Part shown: positions 7,960 to 41,023 of the stretch, one piece after another
Numbering within the stretch: position 1 is the first letter of the stretch
How the letters are laid out: every line of letters begins with the position of its first letter
DNA from: Streptomyces noursei ATCC 11455
GTDB lineage: Bacteria > Actinomycetota > Actinomycetes > Streptomycetales > Streptomycetaceae
DNA length: 64,000 nt
Reading direction: 5' to 3'
Assembly (NCBI RefSeq): GCF_001704275.1
Contig: NZ_CP011533.1
Coordinates: 1,860,001-1,924,000 of the forward strand
Position numbers and translations under genes: made by a program
The notes under the pieces: model-generated
Seen by the model: only the letters and a program-made list of their open reading frames with translations
What the model was told of the DNA's origin: nothing
Database searches by the model: none

Positions 7960-9281
7960 CCATCGACCCCGAGCCGTTCCGGGAGCGGGCCGCCGCGGCG
8001 CTGCTCGCCGCCCGCGACCGCACCCGCCTGCTGACCGGCTGCGTCGAGGACCCCGACCTGGTCGCCCAGCACTCGCCGCTGATGTCCCCGCTGGTGTGGG
8101 ACCTGACGCACATCGGCAACCAGGAGGAGCAGTGGCTGCTGCGCACCGTCGGCGGTCGTGACGCGCTGCGCCCGGACATCGACTCCGTCTACGACGCCTT
8201 CGAGCACCCGCGGGCCGAGCGGCCCGCGCTGCCGCTGCTGCCGCCGACCGAGGCCCGCGACTATGTGGCCGAGGTCCGCGGCCGGGTGCTGGACGTCCTG
8301 GAGCGCGCCGAGCTGCACGGCGGCCCGCTGCTGTCGGGCGGCTTCGCCTTCGGGATGATCGCCCAGCACGAACAGCAGCACGACGAGACGATGTTGATCA
8401 CCCATCAGCTGCGCAAGGGCCCGCCGGTGCTCACCGCGCCCGAGCCGCCGCCCGCACCCACCGGCCCCCTGCCGTCCGAAGTGCTGGTCCCCGGCGGGCC
8501 GTTCCTGATGGGGACGTCCACCGAGCCCTGGGCGCTGGACAACGAACGCCCCGCGCACCGGCGGACGGTGCCGTCGTTCTTCCTCGACACCACCCCGGTG
8601 AGCAACGGCGCCTACCAGCGCTTCATCGAGGACGGCGGCTACGACGACCCGCGCTGGTGGGCCCCGGAGGGCTGGGCGCAGGTCGGCGAACACCGGCTGC
8701 GGGCGCCGCTGTTCTGGCGGCTGGAGGGCCGGCAGTGGCTGCGCCGGCGGTTCGGGGTGACCGAGCCGGTGCCGCCGGACGAGCCGGTGCTGCACGTCAG
8801 TTGGTACGAGGCGGACGCGTACGCGCGGTGGGCCGGGCGGCGCCTTCCCACGGAGGCCGAGTGGGAGAAGGCGGCCCGCCACGACCCGGCGTCCGGGCGG
8901 GACCGGCGCTACCCGTGGGGCGACGCGGACCCTTCGCCGGAGCACGCCAATCTCGGCCAGCGGCATCTGCGGCCGGCCCCGGTCGGCAGCTACCCCGACG
9001 GCGCCTCGCCGCTCGGCGTCCATCAGCTGATCGGCGACGTCTGGGAGTGGACGGCAAGCGACTTCCTGCCCTACCCCGGCTTCGCCGCGTTCCCCTACCG
9101 GGAGTACTCCGAGGTGTTCTTCGGCAGCGCGTACAAGGTGCTGCGCGGCGGCTCGTTCGCCGTCGACCCGGTCGCCTGCCGCGGCACCTTCCGCAACTGG
9201 GACCTTCCGGTGCGGCGGCAGATCTTCGCCGGGTTCCGCACCGCCCGGGACGCCGGGCCGGCGACCGAGGACCTGATCTGA
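7956..9281 (+). CDS. egtB: EgtB, hercynine/gamma-glutamyl-cysteine sulfoxide synthase
   Basis: 441 residues from GTG 7956, overlapping the egtA stop (GTGA). Non-heme iron enzyme that joins gamma-glutamylcysteine to hercynine with O2. An N-terminal DinB-like helical domain (about 1-165) carries the iron-binding HX3HXE pattern in AQHEQQHDETM. The C-terminal formylglycine-generating-enzyme-like domain (about 180-440) shows GGPFLMG, LPTEAEWEKAAR and VWEWTASDFLPYPGF. Both halves are intact and the length matches actinobacterial EgtB. Confidence 0.95.
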   Translation: MTIDPEPFRERAAAALLAARDRTRLLTGCVEDPDLVAQHSPLMSPLVWDLTHIGNQEEQWLLRTVGGRDALRPDIDSVYDAFEHPRAERPALPLLPPTEARDYVAEVRGRVLDVLERAELHGGPLLSGGFAFGMIAQHEQQHDETMLITHQLRKGPPVLTAPEPPPAPTGPLPSEVLVPGGPFLMGTSTEPWALDNERPAHRRTVPSFFLDTTPVSNGAYQRFIEDGGYDDPRWWAPEGWAQVGEHRLRAPLFWRLEGRQWLRRRFGVTEPVPPDEPVLHVSWYEADAYARWAGRRLPTEAEWEKAARHDPASGRDRRYPWGDADPSPEHANLGQRHLRPAPVGSYPDGASPLGVHQLIGDVWEWTASDFLPYPGFAAFPYREYSEVFFGSAYKVLRGGSFAVDPVACRGTFRNWDLPVRRQIFAGFRTARDAGPATEDLI

Positions 9282-33839: not shown

Positions 33840-34044
33840 CCGCACGACGGCCCACCCCGGGCGAACTCACGTACGGTCGTGGTCGCCGGGATACGGACGG
33901 TGACGGCGTCGCCCTCAGTACCGGTGAAGCCGAACCCGCCGCTGGTCCACTGATCCGCCCCAGGCGCGACAGGGCCATTTCGGGCTCGAAAAGACCGAGC
34001 GCGGTCGCCGCGATCTTCTCGGACTTCAGAAAGCCGTCAGCCAC
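33840..34044 (-). pseudogene. frameshifted phage major capsid protein fragment
   Basis: The minus strand begins ADGFLKSEKIAATALGLFEP from ATG 34044, the typical N-terminus of actinophage major capsid proteins (xFLKPEKIxxTALGLLExE). About 100 bases on, the match continues in another frame as GFGFTGTEGDAVTVRIPATT, again capsid-like. The frameshift and the loss of the remaining 200 or so residues show a decayed gene. Its order downstream of a scaffold-like remnant fits a phage head module. Confidence 0.55.
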
Positions 34045-34086
34045 GTGCTCCGCTCAGGGCAGGGCCCGGGCCAGCACGCAGCACAG

Positions 34087-34117
34087 CCAAGGGCTTTGGG
34101 CATGAACCCTTGGTTTT
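34087..34117 (+). terminator. hairpin followed by TTTT
   Basis: CCAAGGG (34087-34093) pairs perfectly with CCCTTGG (34107-34113) and is followed by TTTT. It is the first of two tandem terminator-like hairpins on the plus strand; the loop contains an ATG opening a Trp-rich frame. Confidence 0.45.
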
Positions 34118-34130
34118 GGTTGCGTGAAGG

Positions 34131-34511: not shown

Positions 34512-34589
34512 CGACGAGGCCCCATAGGCCGTCCGCCGGCGCGCGCGGGATGCTGGCGGCCGGCCCTCCCGGATCGCCGGGGGCCGGCG

Positions 34590-34880
34590 CGACCGACGGG
34601 TCAAGGCCGCCCCGCCCCAGGGCGTCCGGCAGGTGGTAGCGGCGGGCCAGGCGCTCCCGGTGCAGTTCCGTCTCCAGCCCCGCGGCCCGGTCGGCCACGG
34701 CCTGGAACTGCTCCGGGATCCGGGCCGCCTTCAGCGCCCTTACCTCCTCCCCTGCCTCGGTGCGGCACTTCGCCGCCTCTGCCCGTACGGCCTTCAACTC
34801 CGCTCGGAGCGCGTCGGCGCCCCGCTCCTGGCCGTCGCCGCGCTCCTCCGGACGCGCCAGCTCCTCAGGACCGTTCGTCG
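34590..34880 (-). pseudogene. phage scaffold-like coiled-coil fragment
   Basis: The minus-strand frame reads EELARPEERGDGQERGADAL, then alternating Lys/Glu helices (AELKAVRAEAAKCRTEAGEE) and ends near LHRERLARRYHLPDAL. This is the usual plan of tailed-phage scaffold proteins of actinophages: coiled coil followed by a 'LARRHGLPDxLAxRL' segment. There is no good start and the frame dissolves after LPDAL. Together with the capsid and MuF remnants it marks a degraded prophage. Confidence 0.45.
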
Positions 34881-35047
34881 CGCCGGTCGGGGATTCGATG
34901 TGCGGCCCGACCCCAGGCGCCCGGGCCGGACAGTTAGGTGAAGCAACGGGGCCTGATTGGGTTAACTGCCTTGCGTAAACGGATCGAAGGACAGCCACCA
35001 GGGGACGTTCCCAGCACGTAGTTCCGCTTCGACCCTTGGAGATTTCC

Positions 35048-35224
35048 ATGCGCATTCGCACTGCAATTGCTGCCGCAGCCCTGGTCACGACAGCCGTACT
35101 CCATGGCGCGGGTGCGGCCGCTGCCGTCGCGCACAAGGCTCCCTCGACCCATACCAAGCAGGTCGTCTCCTCCTCGGATGACGACGACGATGACGACGAG
35201 ACGGGCCAGAGCGACGAAGACTGA
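35048..35224 (+). CDS. small secreted acidic peptide
   Basis: 58 residues from ATG 35048, with GGAG six bases upstream. A signal peptide (MRIRTAIAAAALVTTAVLHG, cleavage near AAAVA) is followed by a Ser/Thr/Lys stretch and an acidic tail with seven Asp in a row then ETGQSDED. No cysteines. The Asp run suggests divalent-cation binding or a spacer; function unknown. It lies between two pieces of the phage relic, on the opposite strand. Confidence 0.6.
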   Translation: MRIRTAIAAAALVTTAVLHGAGAAAAVAHKAPSTHTKQVVSSSDDDDDDDETGQSDED

Positions 35225-36084
35225 GCACGAACGAGGGGTGAACGGCCAGCTCATGTGCCTGGCCAGTGCCCACTAGACGCCTCAACGTGGCGACACCATG
35301 CCCTCCGGGCCTCCGCGCCGGTCATTCCGCGGGTGAGCTCCTGCCGATGGCGGTCGTGGTCGCGGGCCTGGGGGGCATGAAGTCATTGCGTGAGGAGATG
35401 GGGACCGTCTGGCAGGGGCACCCGTTGTGGTCGCGGGTCAGGTCCTCCCGGGCGACCGGAGGCCGCCGGTTCGCACGGACCCGGCCGTCCGGGGAGCCCT
35501 CGGGCTTGCACCGGCCGCCTACGGCCGCCGTGGCCCGGAACGTGTAGCCGGCGCCCCGACGGGCGAGCACGACGCGGAACGCACACGGGTTGCCGTCCGT
35601 GATCCTCGATCCTCGCCCGGCCCACGACCCGCCGGCCCCGGCACCGCGCCTGGTCGATCAGGTCCCGCCGGCCCGCAGGGCCTCGCGGTGGACCGCCCCA
35701 GCGGAGGCCCGGCCGGCAGTGTCCACCGCACCCTCCAGCTCCTGGAGGAACCCGCCGTCGTCCGGCCGGCCCCTGGGACACCAGGGACGCCGCGGCCACC
35801 CTCGGCGCCGGACTGGCAACTTCCTCCCGCTTCCGCTGGCGGTATCGGCGTCACATTCGATTTCCGGCGTCAACGGGCACCTGCTCTCGCACTTCGATGC
35901 GGTGGCCTCCATGTGACCATGCAGCACATCCCCTCATGACCCACCACGCTCGCGACAGTAGCCATCGGCAGTGGCGCCGCCTGGTGGAGGAGCCGTTGAG
36001 ATGGGCACCGACGGTCGGCCCGCGTCGGCTCAGCCGAATCGTCGGTTCAGCAGGTTTGGCAACCGACTTGCCCCCTCTGCACGC
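35225..36084. other. gene-poor phage-relic region
   Basis: Apart from the MuF-like remnant, no frame here has both a plausible start and normal codon bias. The stretches 35225-35399 and 35791-36084 hold short frames only and are lower in GC than the flanks. Nothing else is recognised. Confidence 0.5.
35400..35790 (-). pseudogene. frameshifted phage MuF-like minor head protein fragment
   Basis: On the minus strand one frame reads ITDGNPCAFRVVLARRGAGY and ends DHNGCPCQTVP, matching the C-terminus of phage MuF/capsid-maturation proteins (VTDGxPCAFCxMLASRGPVY ... HxxCxCxxVP). Just upstream, other frames give pieces such as VAAASLVSQG and GRDLIDQA expected before it. At least two frameshifts and loss of a zinc-type Cys show decay. 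It is the first gene of the head-module order seen here. Confidence 0.5.
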
Positions 36085-36111
36085 CAACTAATTGCTGAGC
36101 TGCGCTAGTTG
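36085..36111. promoter_or_regulatory. inverted repeat upstream of the five-repeat gene
   Basis: CAACTA (36085-36090) and TAGTTG (36106-36111) are perfect complements 15 bases apart, in an AT-rich stretch 55 bases before the repeat-protein start. It may be an operator or part of the promoter. Confidence 0.4.
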
Positions 36112-36165
36112 ATCGGACGTATGGTCTTAGGTGCCGTTCATCGGGAACCAGCAAGGGACTTCGGC

Positions 36166-36366
36166 ATGCCAAAGGTCTATATCGTCAACCGCGCCTGGGA
36201 AGCGGACGAAAAGGTCTACCTCGTCAACCGCGCCTGGGAGGCGAAGGAGAAGATCTACATCGTCAACCGCGCCTGGGAAGCGGAGAAGAAGGTCTATATC
36301 GTCAACCGGGCCTGGGAGGCGGACAAGAAGGTCTACATAGTTCAGAACGCTTGGGAAGCGAGTTGA
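36166..36366 (+). CDS. five-repeat small protein (KVYIVNRAWEADE repeats)
   Basis: 66 residues from ATG 36166, with AAGGGA seven bases upstream. After Met-Pro the whole protein is five tandem 13-residue units: KVYIVNRAWEADE, KVYLVNRAWEAKE, KIYIVNRAWEAEK, KVYIVNRAWEADK and KVYIVQNAWEAS. Each has a beta-strand-like KVYIV followed by a turn or short helix RAWEA. The DNA is five 39-base repeats (36172-36363) at about 56% GC, far below the flanks. No signal peptide or membrane segment. It resembles, from memory, the repeats of DUF6150/Septknot proteins; a repeat-type precursor peptide is an alternative. It sits between the phage relic and a tRNA fragment. Confidence 0.8.
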   Translation: MPKVYIVNRAWEADEKVYLVNRAWEAKEKIYIVNRAWEAEKKVYIVNRAWEADKKVYIVQNAWEAS

Positions 36367-36475: not shown

Positions 36476-36520
36476 TGGCGGGCCCGGCCGGAATCGAACC
36501 GGCGGCCGCGTTGCCGTCAT
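36476..36520 (-). other. 3' half of a tRNA gene (probable attachment-site scar)
   Basis: On the minus strand, a tRNA 3' half from anticodon loop to CCA: loop ATGACGG with U33, anticodon-stem strand CAACG, T-arm GCCGG-TTCGATT-CCGGC with a perfect stem, acceptor strand CGGGCCC, G73 and CCA. The 5' half (expected acceptor GGGCCCG and D-arm) is absent; its place is taken by the end of the capA-like gene. Integrases of actinophages and integrative plasmids often recombine at exactly this segment. Confidence 0.65.
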
Positions 36521-38935: not shown

Positions 38936-41023
38936 TCACGCCACCTCGATCCCGAAGTCGCCCACCAGCGCGGCCAGCCCGCCGGGGTAGCCCTTGCCGC
39001 CCAGGACGAAGTCCCAGTCGCCGCCGGCGCGGCGGCGGAACGCGCCGAGCACCAGCGCGCGCTCGCCGGGCCGGCCGTCGGAGACCGGCAGCCGGTCGAG
39101 TTCGGTGCCGGCGGCGTCCAGCAGGCGGATCCGGGCGTCGGTGAAGCCGGTGAGGTCGCCGTCCGGGTCGGTTTCCGGGTCCACGGCGGCGACCAGGACC
39201 AGCCGGTCGGCGTCCGGCGGCAGGTCCTCGAAGCGCACCCGCAGGGCGGCGCGGTCCTCGATCACGCCGGCCAGCATCCGCACCGAACCGTCCGGCGTGG
39301 CCGGGTTGTTGAAGAAGACGAAGTGGTCGTCGTCGAGCACGGTGGCGCCCTCGCAGACCAGCGCGCAGACGTCGAGGGCGGCCGGGCCGGACCAGTTCAT
39401 GGCGAGGGTGGTGTGGTCCGGGGCCGGCTCGGCGGGCTCCGGGGTGTCGGGGCCGGCGTCGCCGGGGCCGAGGCGGCCGCGCAGCCCGTGCCGGCCGAGC
39501 AGGTCGACGAGTTCGGGGCCGGCGATGAGGGTGAGCGGCTTGCCCTGGGCGAAGCCGTGCGCGCCGGGCCCGAAGTGGGAGGTCGTCACCAGCACGCCCT
39601 TGTTGGCGCCCTCGGACTGGACCGTGCCGTAGAGGTCGCGGACGGCGGACGGCGGGACGGTGTTGCGGTAGCGCTTGACCTGCACGACGATCTTGCCGCC
39701 GCGGATCGGGTCGGAGTCCAGGGCGTCCACGTCGATCCCGCCGTCGCCGGACCGCTGGGTGGTGACCGCCCGCATCCCCATCGCGCGGAACAGCTCGGCG
39801 ATCAGCTGCTCGAAGGCGAGCGGGTCCATCTCCAGGAGGTCGGGGTCGCCGTCGGTGCCGTGGGAGACCACCGCGCCGCCGGCGATGTCGCCCGGCCGCC
39901 GCCCGGGGCGGACCGGGGTGCGCTGGTCGGGGCGGGCGGAGAGCTGGCCGCGGAGTCCGTCGGTGAGGCAGTCGAGGGCGCTGACCTGGTCCAGGTGGTA
40001 GGACTCGACGGCGCTGCGGGGGGCCAGGACGGTGGCCAGGAAGATCGTGGCGGGGCGACCGGTGACCGGGTCCACGTCGTCGACGAAGCCGTTGAGCGCC
40101 ACCGAGTCCAGGGCGCCGTGGGTGTCGGCGGCGAAGAGGTCGCGCAGCACCAGCAGGACGCCCTGGGCGAGCACCTCGCGGTAGAGCGCCCGGCGTTGGG
40201 CGGCCGGGCGGGCGGTCTCCCGCTCCTCGTCGGCGGTGGGCAGGTAGCGGACCGCCTTGACGTCGGGGACGACGTCGTAGCCCGGCAGTTCCCAGTCGAG
40301 GACGAGCTGGCGGGCGGCGGTGTCGTAGCCGGCGCTGAGCTGGCGGGGGAAGCCCTCGGGCCAGGACGTGCCGGAGTACAGGGCGGCGGAGAAGTACTCC
40401 ACGACGGCGTCCGCGTCGCCGGCGCGCAGGCCCGCGACGAGTTCCTCGACGCCGGCGTTGTGCCGGCGGACCTCTGCCAGGGCGCCGGCCGCCCACTGGT
40501 CGTACTGCTGTTGGTAGGCGGCCAGTTGGGCCTGTCGCCGGGCCTCGGCGGCCTGGGCCGTGTACCAGTCCTGCTCGAAGCGGGCGCGGGCCTCCTGCCG
40601 GTCGCGGTCGCGGCGGGCGCCGGAGCGCAGGCCGCCGGTGGGCACCTGGTAGCGGGCCGGGTCGGGCATGGCCACCGGGGCGGTCAGTGCGCCGGGGGCG
40701 AACGGTTCGACGCGTTCGGGGCGGAGCAGGGCGGCGGGGGTGAAGGCGGGGGCCCGGCAACCGTCGGCGAGCAGGCCGGTCAGGGAGGCGACGCGGGCGT
40801 CGAGTTCCTCGGTGCGGCGGCGGGCGTCGGCCTCGCGCTGCCGGCGGTAGGCGGTCTGCCGCTCGCGGTGCATGCGGGCCATGGCGCGCTCGGCAGCGCG
40901 GGCCTGCCGCTCCTGTTCCCGCTGCTGTTGCAGCCGGGCGCGGTGTGCGGCCTCCGCCTGGCGCTGCTGCTGGCGCTGTGCCTCGGCCCAGATGCCGAGT
41001 AATCCCTGGGAACGGCGGCTCAT
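38936..41023 (-). CDS. Mrr-type nuclease domain fused to a TerD domain
   Basis: 695 residues. The N-terminal 75 are a Gln/Arg/Glu coiled coil, with more coiled coil at about 140-190. A middle domain (about 190-390) is not recognised. An Mrr_cat restriction-endonuclease fold spans about 399-510: LAFEQLIAELFRAMG, D431 in GDGGIDVD and K450 in VVQVKRYRN, the PD-(D/E)xK core with Q replacing E, as is normal for Mrr. A TerD domain spans about 538-695 (MNWSGPAALDVCALVCEG, DHFVFFNN, GDWDFVLGGKGY). Mrr enzymes cut modified DNA; TerD proteins bind calcium in stress and phage responses. A cytoplasmic defence role is inferred. Confidence 0.88.
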   Translation of the reverse strand: MSRRSQGLLGIWAEAQRQQQRQAEAAHRARLQQQREQERQARAAERAMARMHRERQTAYRRQREADARRRTEELDARVASLTGLLADGCRAPAFTPAALLRPERVEPFAPGALTAPVAMPDPARYQVPTGGLRSGARRDRDRQEARARFEQDWYTAQAAEARRQAQLAAYQQQYDQWAAGALAEVRRHNAGVEELVAGLRAGDADAVVEYFSAALYSGTSWPEGFPRQLSAGYDTAARQLVLDWELPGYDVVPDVKAVRYLPTADEERETARPAAQRRALYREVLAQGVLLVLRDLFAADTHGALDSVALNGFVDDVDPVTGRPATIFLATVLAPRSAVESYHLDQVSALDCLTDGLRGQLSARPDQRTPVRPGRRPGDIAGGAVVSHGTDGDPDLLEMDPLAFEQLIAELFRAMGMRAVTTQRSGDGGIDVDALDSDPIRGGKIVVQVKRYRNTVPPSAVRDLYGTVQSEGANKGVLVTTSHFGPGAHGFAQGKPLTLIAGPELVDLLGRHGLRGRLGPGDAGPDTPEPAEPAPDHTTLAMNWSGPAALDVCALVCEGATVLDDDHFVFFNNPATPDGSVRMLAGVIEDRAALRVRFEDLPPDADRLVLVAAVDPETDPDGDLTGFTDARIRLLDAAGTELDRLPVSDGRPGERALVLGAFRRRAGGDWDFVLGGKGYPGGLAALVGDFGIEVA

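Follow-up and report, generated by a model that had tools for sequence, protein, structure and literature searches.

What does a short tandem array in Streptomyces noursei ATCC 11455 encode, and how did it come to lie beside the remains of a phage? The array is in a 64,000-nucleotide stretch of contig NZ_CP011533.1 (positions 1,860,001 to 1,924,000, all of it referred to below as the window) and fills a single gene, whose 66-residue product is called P0001. The translation is MPKVYIVNRAWEADE-KVYLVNRAWEAKE-KIYIVNRAWEAEK-KVYIVNRAWEADK-KVYIVQNAWEAS, then stop, that is, Met-Pro and five contiguous units of 13+13+13+13+12 residues. A first-pass annotation, made from the DNA letters alone, had read five 13-residue repeats; the five units after Met-Pro stand, and the fifth has 12 residues, not 13. 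The gene was laid out as follows.

36108 to 36165, + strand: 58-base leader of the repeat gene (gap-free alignment to S. noursei A-2-1, 94.8% identity)
36153 to 36158, + strand: ribosome-binding site AAGGGA, 7 bases before the ATG
36166 to 36366, + strand: coding sequence of the 66-residue, five-unit DUF6150 protein P0001 (translation, Pfam, orthologue, selection)
36172 to 36210, + strand: repeat unit 1, KVYIVNRAWEADE (Tandem Repeats Finder, translation, as for all units)
36211 to 36249, + strand: repeat unit 2, KVYLVNRAWEAKE
36250 to 36288, + strand: repeat unit 3, KIYIVNRAWEAEK
36289 to 36327, + strand: repeat unit 4, KVYIVNRAWEADK
36328 to 36363, + strand: repeat unit 5, KVYIVQNAWEAS, 12 residues

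Tandem Repeats Finder reported the array in three rows with scores of 217-262, the next best score elsewhere in the window being 106. Identity at a lag of 39 bases, taken over 156 bases, was 0.80 in the array, at most 0.57 in the rest of the window and at most 0.51 in 30 shuffles. Together with the codon and selection data given below, these values ruled out a chance or low-complexity artefact. The low guanine-cytosine (GC) content that had been noticed at first sight was confirmed (56.2% in the gene, 74.3% in the window); third-position GC was 83%, so the low value probably comes largely from codons for Lys, Tyr, Ile, Asn and Glu. The ribosome site had rightly been called good, and the start codon is supported because homologues open with MPKVY, MAKVY or MIKVY. 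Neither a sigma-70 promoter nor a terminator was found. Rfam gave no match in the window at the gathering threshold; a weak tRNA-Sec match (E 6.3) near the tRNA scar described below was not used.

Family membership was decided with a hidden Markov model. Against Pfam PF19647 (DUF6150), P0001 scored 35.3 bits over residues 3-65 (curated cut-off 27, E 1.1e-8), which bore out the family suggested on first reading, and six of seven relatives scanned with the same model were above the cut-off (P0006 was below, at 22.6). The repeated K-V-Y-x-V-x5-A-D units of P0001 are the DUF6150 pattern. A search of 5.8 billion proteins with P0001 as single query returned one relative (E up to 0.01); profiles of three aligned rows and of seven rows of the uninterrupted form returned 16 and 95, respectively (E up to 10). 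Three architectures were described from 56 full sequences out of the 100 proteins returned. The first has a hydrophobic, signal-like N-terminus and five or six units; a GxWYF loop lies midway along it, and it finishes with Ala-Gly-Trp. The second is about 70 residues long with a longer insertion following the second unit (e.g. P0052). The third is uninterrupted, with exactly five units in P0001, P0003, P0004, P0005 and P0019, four and a cut fifth in P0006, four and a stub in P0023, and four in P0002 and P0007; some shorter pieces of this form, P0008 and P0034 among them, contain two or three units.

P0001 shares its unit with the canonical members P0020, P0021 and P0024. It is without their hydrophobic N-terminus, their third unit with the GxWYF loop and their Ala-Gly-Trp ending, and its units are unbroken, unlike theirs. 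In a MAFFT alignment, its units 1-5 corresponded to units 1, 2, 4, 5 and 6 of the six-unit form. Because all three canonical features are missing, P0001 was filed as a variant; judged by sequence, it is a new, minimal, uninterrupted five-unit variant of the known DUF6150 family. Membership in PF24024 (DUF7336) was not assigned: a 17-residue piece of P0001 scored 24.8 and the orthologue 26.8 (cut-off 25), and P0001 covered 16 of 60 profile positions. This near-cut-off match to the unit KVYIVNRAWEADKKVY suggests that the start of DUF7336 resembles a strand-loop unit. Three further kinds of match were set aside as short repeat matches: KCNE1 potassium channel subunits among the PDB sequences (E 0.023-0.053), PHROGs (best E 0.001) and a PADLOC model (E 0.0016).

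An orthologue was found in S. noursei A-2-1, with 94% protein identity, the same gene order and no insertions or deletions. The two genes (93.0% identical and, like the leader, aligned free of gaps) differ at 10 synonymous and 4 non-synonymous places, giving a non-synonymous divergence (dN) of 0.026, a synonymous divergence (dS) of 0.317 and a dN/dS of 0.08. The repeat gene is under purifying selection. For the adjoining CapA gene, its first 80 codons excluded, dN was 0.037 and dS 0.062; the protein sequence of the repeat gene is thus more strictly kept than that of CapA, and divergence at silent sites of the repeat gene is five times that of CapA. It follows that the whole relic in which the gene lies has changed faster than the adjoining chromosome. 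The 240 alignment columns before the leader were 83.8% identical with 5 gap runs. At unit position 10 the Glu codons read GAA, GAG, GAA, GAG, GAA in both orthologues; since silent codon states are common by position, the units were probably not copied over each other after the two lineages parted.

The family is rare in these bacteria. DUF6150 was found in one of 392 sampled Streptomyces genomes, the window's own, and in two of 396 sampled Actinomycetota genomes, the window's own and G800. The latter, a distant member of the phylum, has a divergent DUF6150 protein of 95 residues (L005:1477-1764, - strand, 48.6 bits). One genome of each species was also scanned, an approach that detects only close relatives, and this gave a single additional relative, that in S. 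noursei A-2-1. With P0001 as query, tblastn (low-complexity filter, E up to 1) gave no match in 50,697 phage and 72,556 plasmid records; canonical P0028, run by tblastn with the same filter, gave no relatives in phage or plasmid records, and the DNA of the locus had no match in plasmids. A DNA comparison with 40 other Streptomyces genomes, made in search of an empty site, found no closely related locus. CapA homologues of 47-64% identity in 64 of 150 other Streptomyces genomes were not accepted as orthologous places.

DUF6150 relatives were present on four uncultured viral contigs, and the three examined (L006, L007 and L009) encode the longer form with a hydrophobic N-terminus. The sole viral contig found by a repeat-DNA pattern, L004, was taken as a chance match because the match is antisense to a long open reading frame (ORF) and there is no repeat array. 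As a weak lead, the canonical DUF6150 gene at L009:7941-8285 stands between McrBC and Exo_endo_phos genes. Restriction-gene neighbours thus occur in L009 (McrBC) and in the window (Mrr-TerD, below), and two cases prove nothing. The neighbours in L006 are a PD-(D/E)XK nuclease, a SLOG-family protein and a glycosyltransferase.

The fold was predicted with AlphaFold2. With a 32-sequence alignment, P0001 was modelled at a predicted local distance difference test score (pLDDT) of 95 as five strand-plus-short-helix units. Each 13-residue unit is predicted to form a short strand (E/K-K-V-Y-I), a turn, a 3-residue helix (A-W-E) and a turn. In a Foldseek search of the PDB, the only confident matches were four chains of Q9PR55 from Ureaplasma (PDB 8IWA, 8IWB, 8JRM), with probabilities of 0.99-1.00 and E not below 1e-3. 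Residues 35-89 of Q9PR55 superpose with residues 1-59 of the P0001 model; the two proteins have 89 and 66 residues, and about 22-27% identity in structural alignments. Q9PR55 was not among the PDB-sequence matches of DUF6150 profiles built from 14, 32 and 22 members (E up to 1, 1 and 10), nor was it returned by three single-sequence searches. The early idea of a Septknot-type fold is therefore supported by structure comparison, although sequence profiles do not recover it. P0001 is predicted with high confidence to share the fold of Q9PR55, the most complex protein knot known. In the viral structure library the best match to the P0001 model had an E of 2.0, and nothing useful was found. Knotted solenoids (PMC13123833) were also considered; they were not among the Foldseek matches, which does not exclude them.

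According to PMC9278004, Q9PR55 has a 7_1 knot with a core of residues 27-83, and P73136 has a predicted 5_1 knot, to which the Q9PR55 knot adds one more winding. The 7_1 knot was confirmed crystallographically (PMC13352647). PMC10672856 states that AlphaFold is able to pass chains through each other, and that the 5_1 and 7_1 cases show no visible dense packing and are formed of single domains.

The P0001 chain is probably knotted, whatever the type. The most likely type is the (2,5) torus knot or pentafoil, 5_1, put forward tentatively at somewhat short of an even chance; 3_1, 7_1 and the unknot may be other outcomes. By the tandem-repeat logic of PMC10598012, N units at 720/N degrees each form a (2,N) torus knot. 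The designed proteins kcTRP3 and kcTRP5 of that paper close N like units into such a knot (five for the pentafoil), as P0001 would; their units are large, helical and identical, whereas those of P0001 are strand-turn-helix units of 13 residues that differ at residue 13. When open chains were closed at random on an idealised torus, five units at 144 degrees gave 5_1 in 10 of 12 closures from one start phase and in 11 of 12 from the other, four units mostly gave 3_1, and a 72-degree chain was unknotted up to six units.

Unit patterns were compared in eight uninterrupted proteins. Left out were the near-duplicate P0003, the shorter or cut P0008, P0009, P0014, P0017, P0022, P0034 and P0088, and P0036 and P0067, which have four contiguous units and a canonical ending (residue 13 reads I,K,L and V,K,L, respectively). 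At positions 6-10, 52-75% of unit pairs agreed within a protein and 8-18% between proteins; positions 1, 2, 5, 11 and 12 were about equally conserved within and between, and position 3 agreed in 83% and 69%. Of 102 proteins, 54 had at least three regular units; none of 200 shuffles came up to the within-protein agreement of these 54 at positions 6-10. There was a slight excess at positions 3, 5 and 11 (3, 1 and 1 of 200), and position 12 went the opposite way. This set was picked by a pattern that misses P0007, P0019 and others and keeps near-duplicates, and its shuffles ignore kinship and recent unit duplication. Positions 6-10 may be a face where like residues must match, as would be expected if equivalent loops come together round the axis.

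Position 13 behaved in the reverse manner: agreement was 68% for pairs of equally numbered units from different proteins of the eight, and 26% for pairs from one protein. Five-unit proteins have E,E,K,K there (P0004 has Arg for one Lys, P0019 Tyr for the first Glu), and P0023 has W,E,K,K. Residue 13 opens strands 2 to 5 in the P0001 model. Charges were counted round the ring in seven proteins (the eight with four-unit P0002 and P0007 dropped and P0003 added): a skip-one strand order gave 17 opposite and 0 like neighbours, and a sequential order 7 opposite and 12 like. Both patterns, the matched positions 6-10 and the number-specific residue 13, look new.

Several results limit the case for the pentafoil. 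P0002 and P0007 read E,K,K at position 13, P0008 K,K, P0009 K,I,M, P0014 K,M and P0017 E,K; four of 12 ring orders are without like pairs, and two of these score 19 opposite; and with seven-fold winding on the idealised torus, five units gave mostly 3_1 and seven gave 7_1. The charge code is weakened because the shorter relatives differ and two ring orders score better; the charge pattern favours the pentafoil order without proving it.

A knot of another type, either a trefoil or a 7_1 knot like that of Q9PR55, survives best among the competing readings and was judged unlikely. It would agree with the seven-fold winding result, with the 57 residues that suffice for 7_1 in Q9PR55 (PMC9278004), and with the designed identical five-repeat pentafoil, which crystallised as an asymmetric trefoil; the authors suggest that unit identity may have helped that design misfold (PMC10598012). 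The pentafoil is preferred over it in that (2,5) suits a five-strand ring best and the E,E,K,K series makes the units non-identical, which fits the skip-one order among others.

Markedly less probable is a P0001 of the same unit structure that is unknotted, its strands running sequentially round a ring or in a short solenoid. Run without an alignment, AlphaFold2 modelled P0001 as long paired strands, with low confidence, and for first-generation pentafoil designs it had predicted barrels that were unknotted (PMC10598012). The only confident structural matches are to the 7_1-knotted Q9PR55, over residues 1-59, and a sequential ring would set like charges adjacent in the count above; both argue against an unknotted chain.

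The surroundings of the gene point to a mobile element, as the first-pass annotation had proposed: phage head-gene remnants lie on one side and a tRNA-Val scar on the other.

33884 to 34120, - strand: remnant of the major capsid gene start and adjoining spacer (match to prophage)
34533 to 34891, - strand: decayed head scaffolding protein gene, phrog_233 (PHROG match, prophage match)
35287 to 35801, - strand: piece of a decayed head maturation protease gene (two blast pieces matching a prophage elsewhere in the genome)
36483 to 36503, - strand: piece of tRNA-Val(GAC), probable attachment-site scar (21 bases identical to the tRNA 3' part)

The tRNA scar is real in kind, and the intact tRNA-Val(GAC) gene that it matches lies elsewhere in this genome, at 7.58 Mb; ARAGORN found no intact tRNA within the window. 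The head-gene pieces, upstream of the repeat gene and on the opposite strand, match a prophage at 7.57-7.59 Mb, whose integrase gene is less than 0.5 kb from the tRNA-Val(GAC) gene. This relative of the relic (L035, G000:C1:7572000-7591900) has integrase, terminase, portal, protease, scaffold, capsid and tail genes. It is without a DUF6150 gene, the family having a single match in the whole genome. In S. noursei A-2-1 the scar had no match in the stretch L003 7300-10600; two more pieces matching the prophage just inside the tRNA (L035 4448-4847) are present there and not in the window. Each relic taken alone is colinear with the prophage, and the composite order of the two genomes is capsid, scaffold, protease, tRNA-proximal pieces, repeat gene, tRNA scar. 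The repeat gene is therefore placed next to the attachment site. Phages often carry cargo next to the attachment site.

A small ORF inside the relic, at 35048-35224 (+ strand) between the scaffold and protease pieces, encodes a signal-like N-terminus and an acidic tail (SSSDDDDDDDETGQSDED); it is conserved in S. noursei A-2-1 (L003 about 8733-8909) and has no Pfam match. The nearest genes tested are those for CapA, a hydrolase, the Mrr-TerD nuclease, TetR and a P450 at 3 kb. The nuclease gene (38936-41023, - strand, 2.6 kb away) encodes an Mrr-type nuclease fused to a TerD domain and matches PADLOC type IV restriction enzymes.

That P0001 is a non-functional leftover of the phage relic is very improbable. 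The adjoining phage genes are broken or missing pieces, and DUF6150 is confined to one of the sampled Streptomyces genomes; the dN/dS of 0.08 and the lack of any insertion or deletion in gene or leader, against 5 gap runs in the 240 columns before, disfavour a broken remnant. Least credible of all is the first-pass alternative of a multi-core precursor peptide, with Tyr and Trp cross-linked and the 13-mers cut apart: Tyr and Trp are in every unit and a P450 gene is 3 kb away, but there is no leader peptide (the units begin at residue 3), the protein belongs to a Pfam domain family with a confident predicted fold, relatives have Tyr, Phe, Ala, Ser, Asp and other residues in place of the Trp at unit position 9, and the P450 lies beyond the TetR gene and the phage relic in a chromosome stretch 98% identical in S. 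noursei A-2-1.

The reading preferred here, held at slightly better than an even chance, is that the gene was cargo of a tRNA-Val-integrating phage and outlived the prophage, and that its product is a minimal DUF6150 knotted torus, most likely a pentafoil. The knot and its type, the role of the charge code, the binding face and the benefit to a lysogen are what we infer. The gene would have been retained once the prophage decayed. The units of P0001 would wind as in Q9PR55 into a compact knotted torus; in a pentafoil each strand would stand two places from the preceding one (strand order 1-3-5-2-4). The framework residues K-V-Y-x-V and Ala-Asp would hold the torus, and residue 13 (E,E,K,K) would give identity to otherwise like units, E-K neighbours favouring the skip-one order. 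The five matched NRAWE loops would form a repeated face. More tentatively, P0001 could be a hyperstable scaffold, resistant to proteolysis, that offers a partner several-fold binding through its five like loops, useful first to the phage or lysogen and later kept by the host.

Doubtful as a whole, and a little more so than the scaffold role, is the full picture of a natural 66-residue 5_1 pentafoil of five near-identical units with a one-residue address code (E,E,K,K) and a quasi-five-fold loop display. If true, this knot would be smaller than MJ0366 (92 residues, 82 resolved) and Q9PR55 (89), and the address code would overcome what defeated the designed pentafoil of identical repeats.

If knotted in any form, P0001 would rank among the shortest knotted proteins, perhaps jointly with other DUF6150 members about 70 residues long, and would be the simplest in terms of information, a single 13-residue unit taken five times. 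The folding of a torus knot could then be studied unit by unit, with four, five or six units, and one could ask whether a single residue that makes the repeats non-identical is what steers a chain to the right knot, where the designed pentafoil failed (PMC10598012). P0001 would then serve as a natural test case for the way in which near-identical repeats come to form a knot. For the family, DUF6150 gains a structural frame, and a phage-borne use in actinobacteria is indicated.
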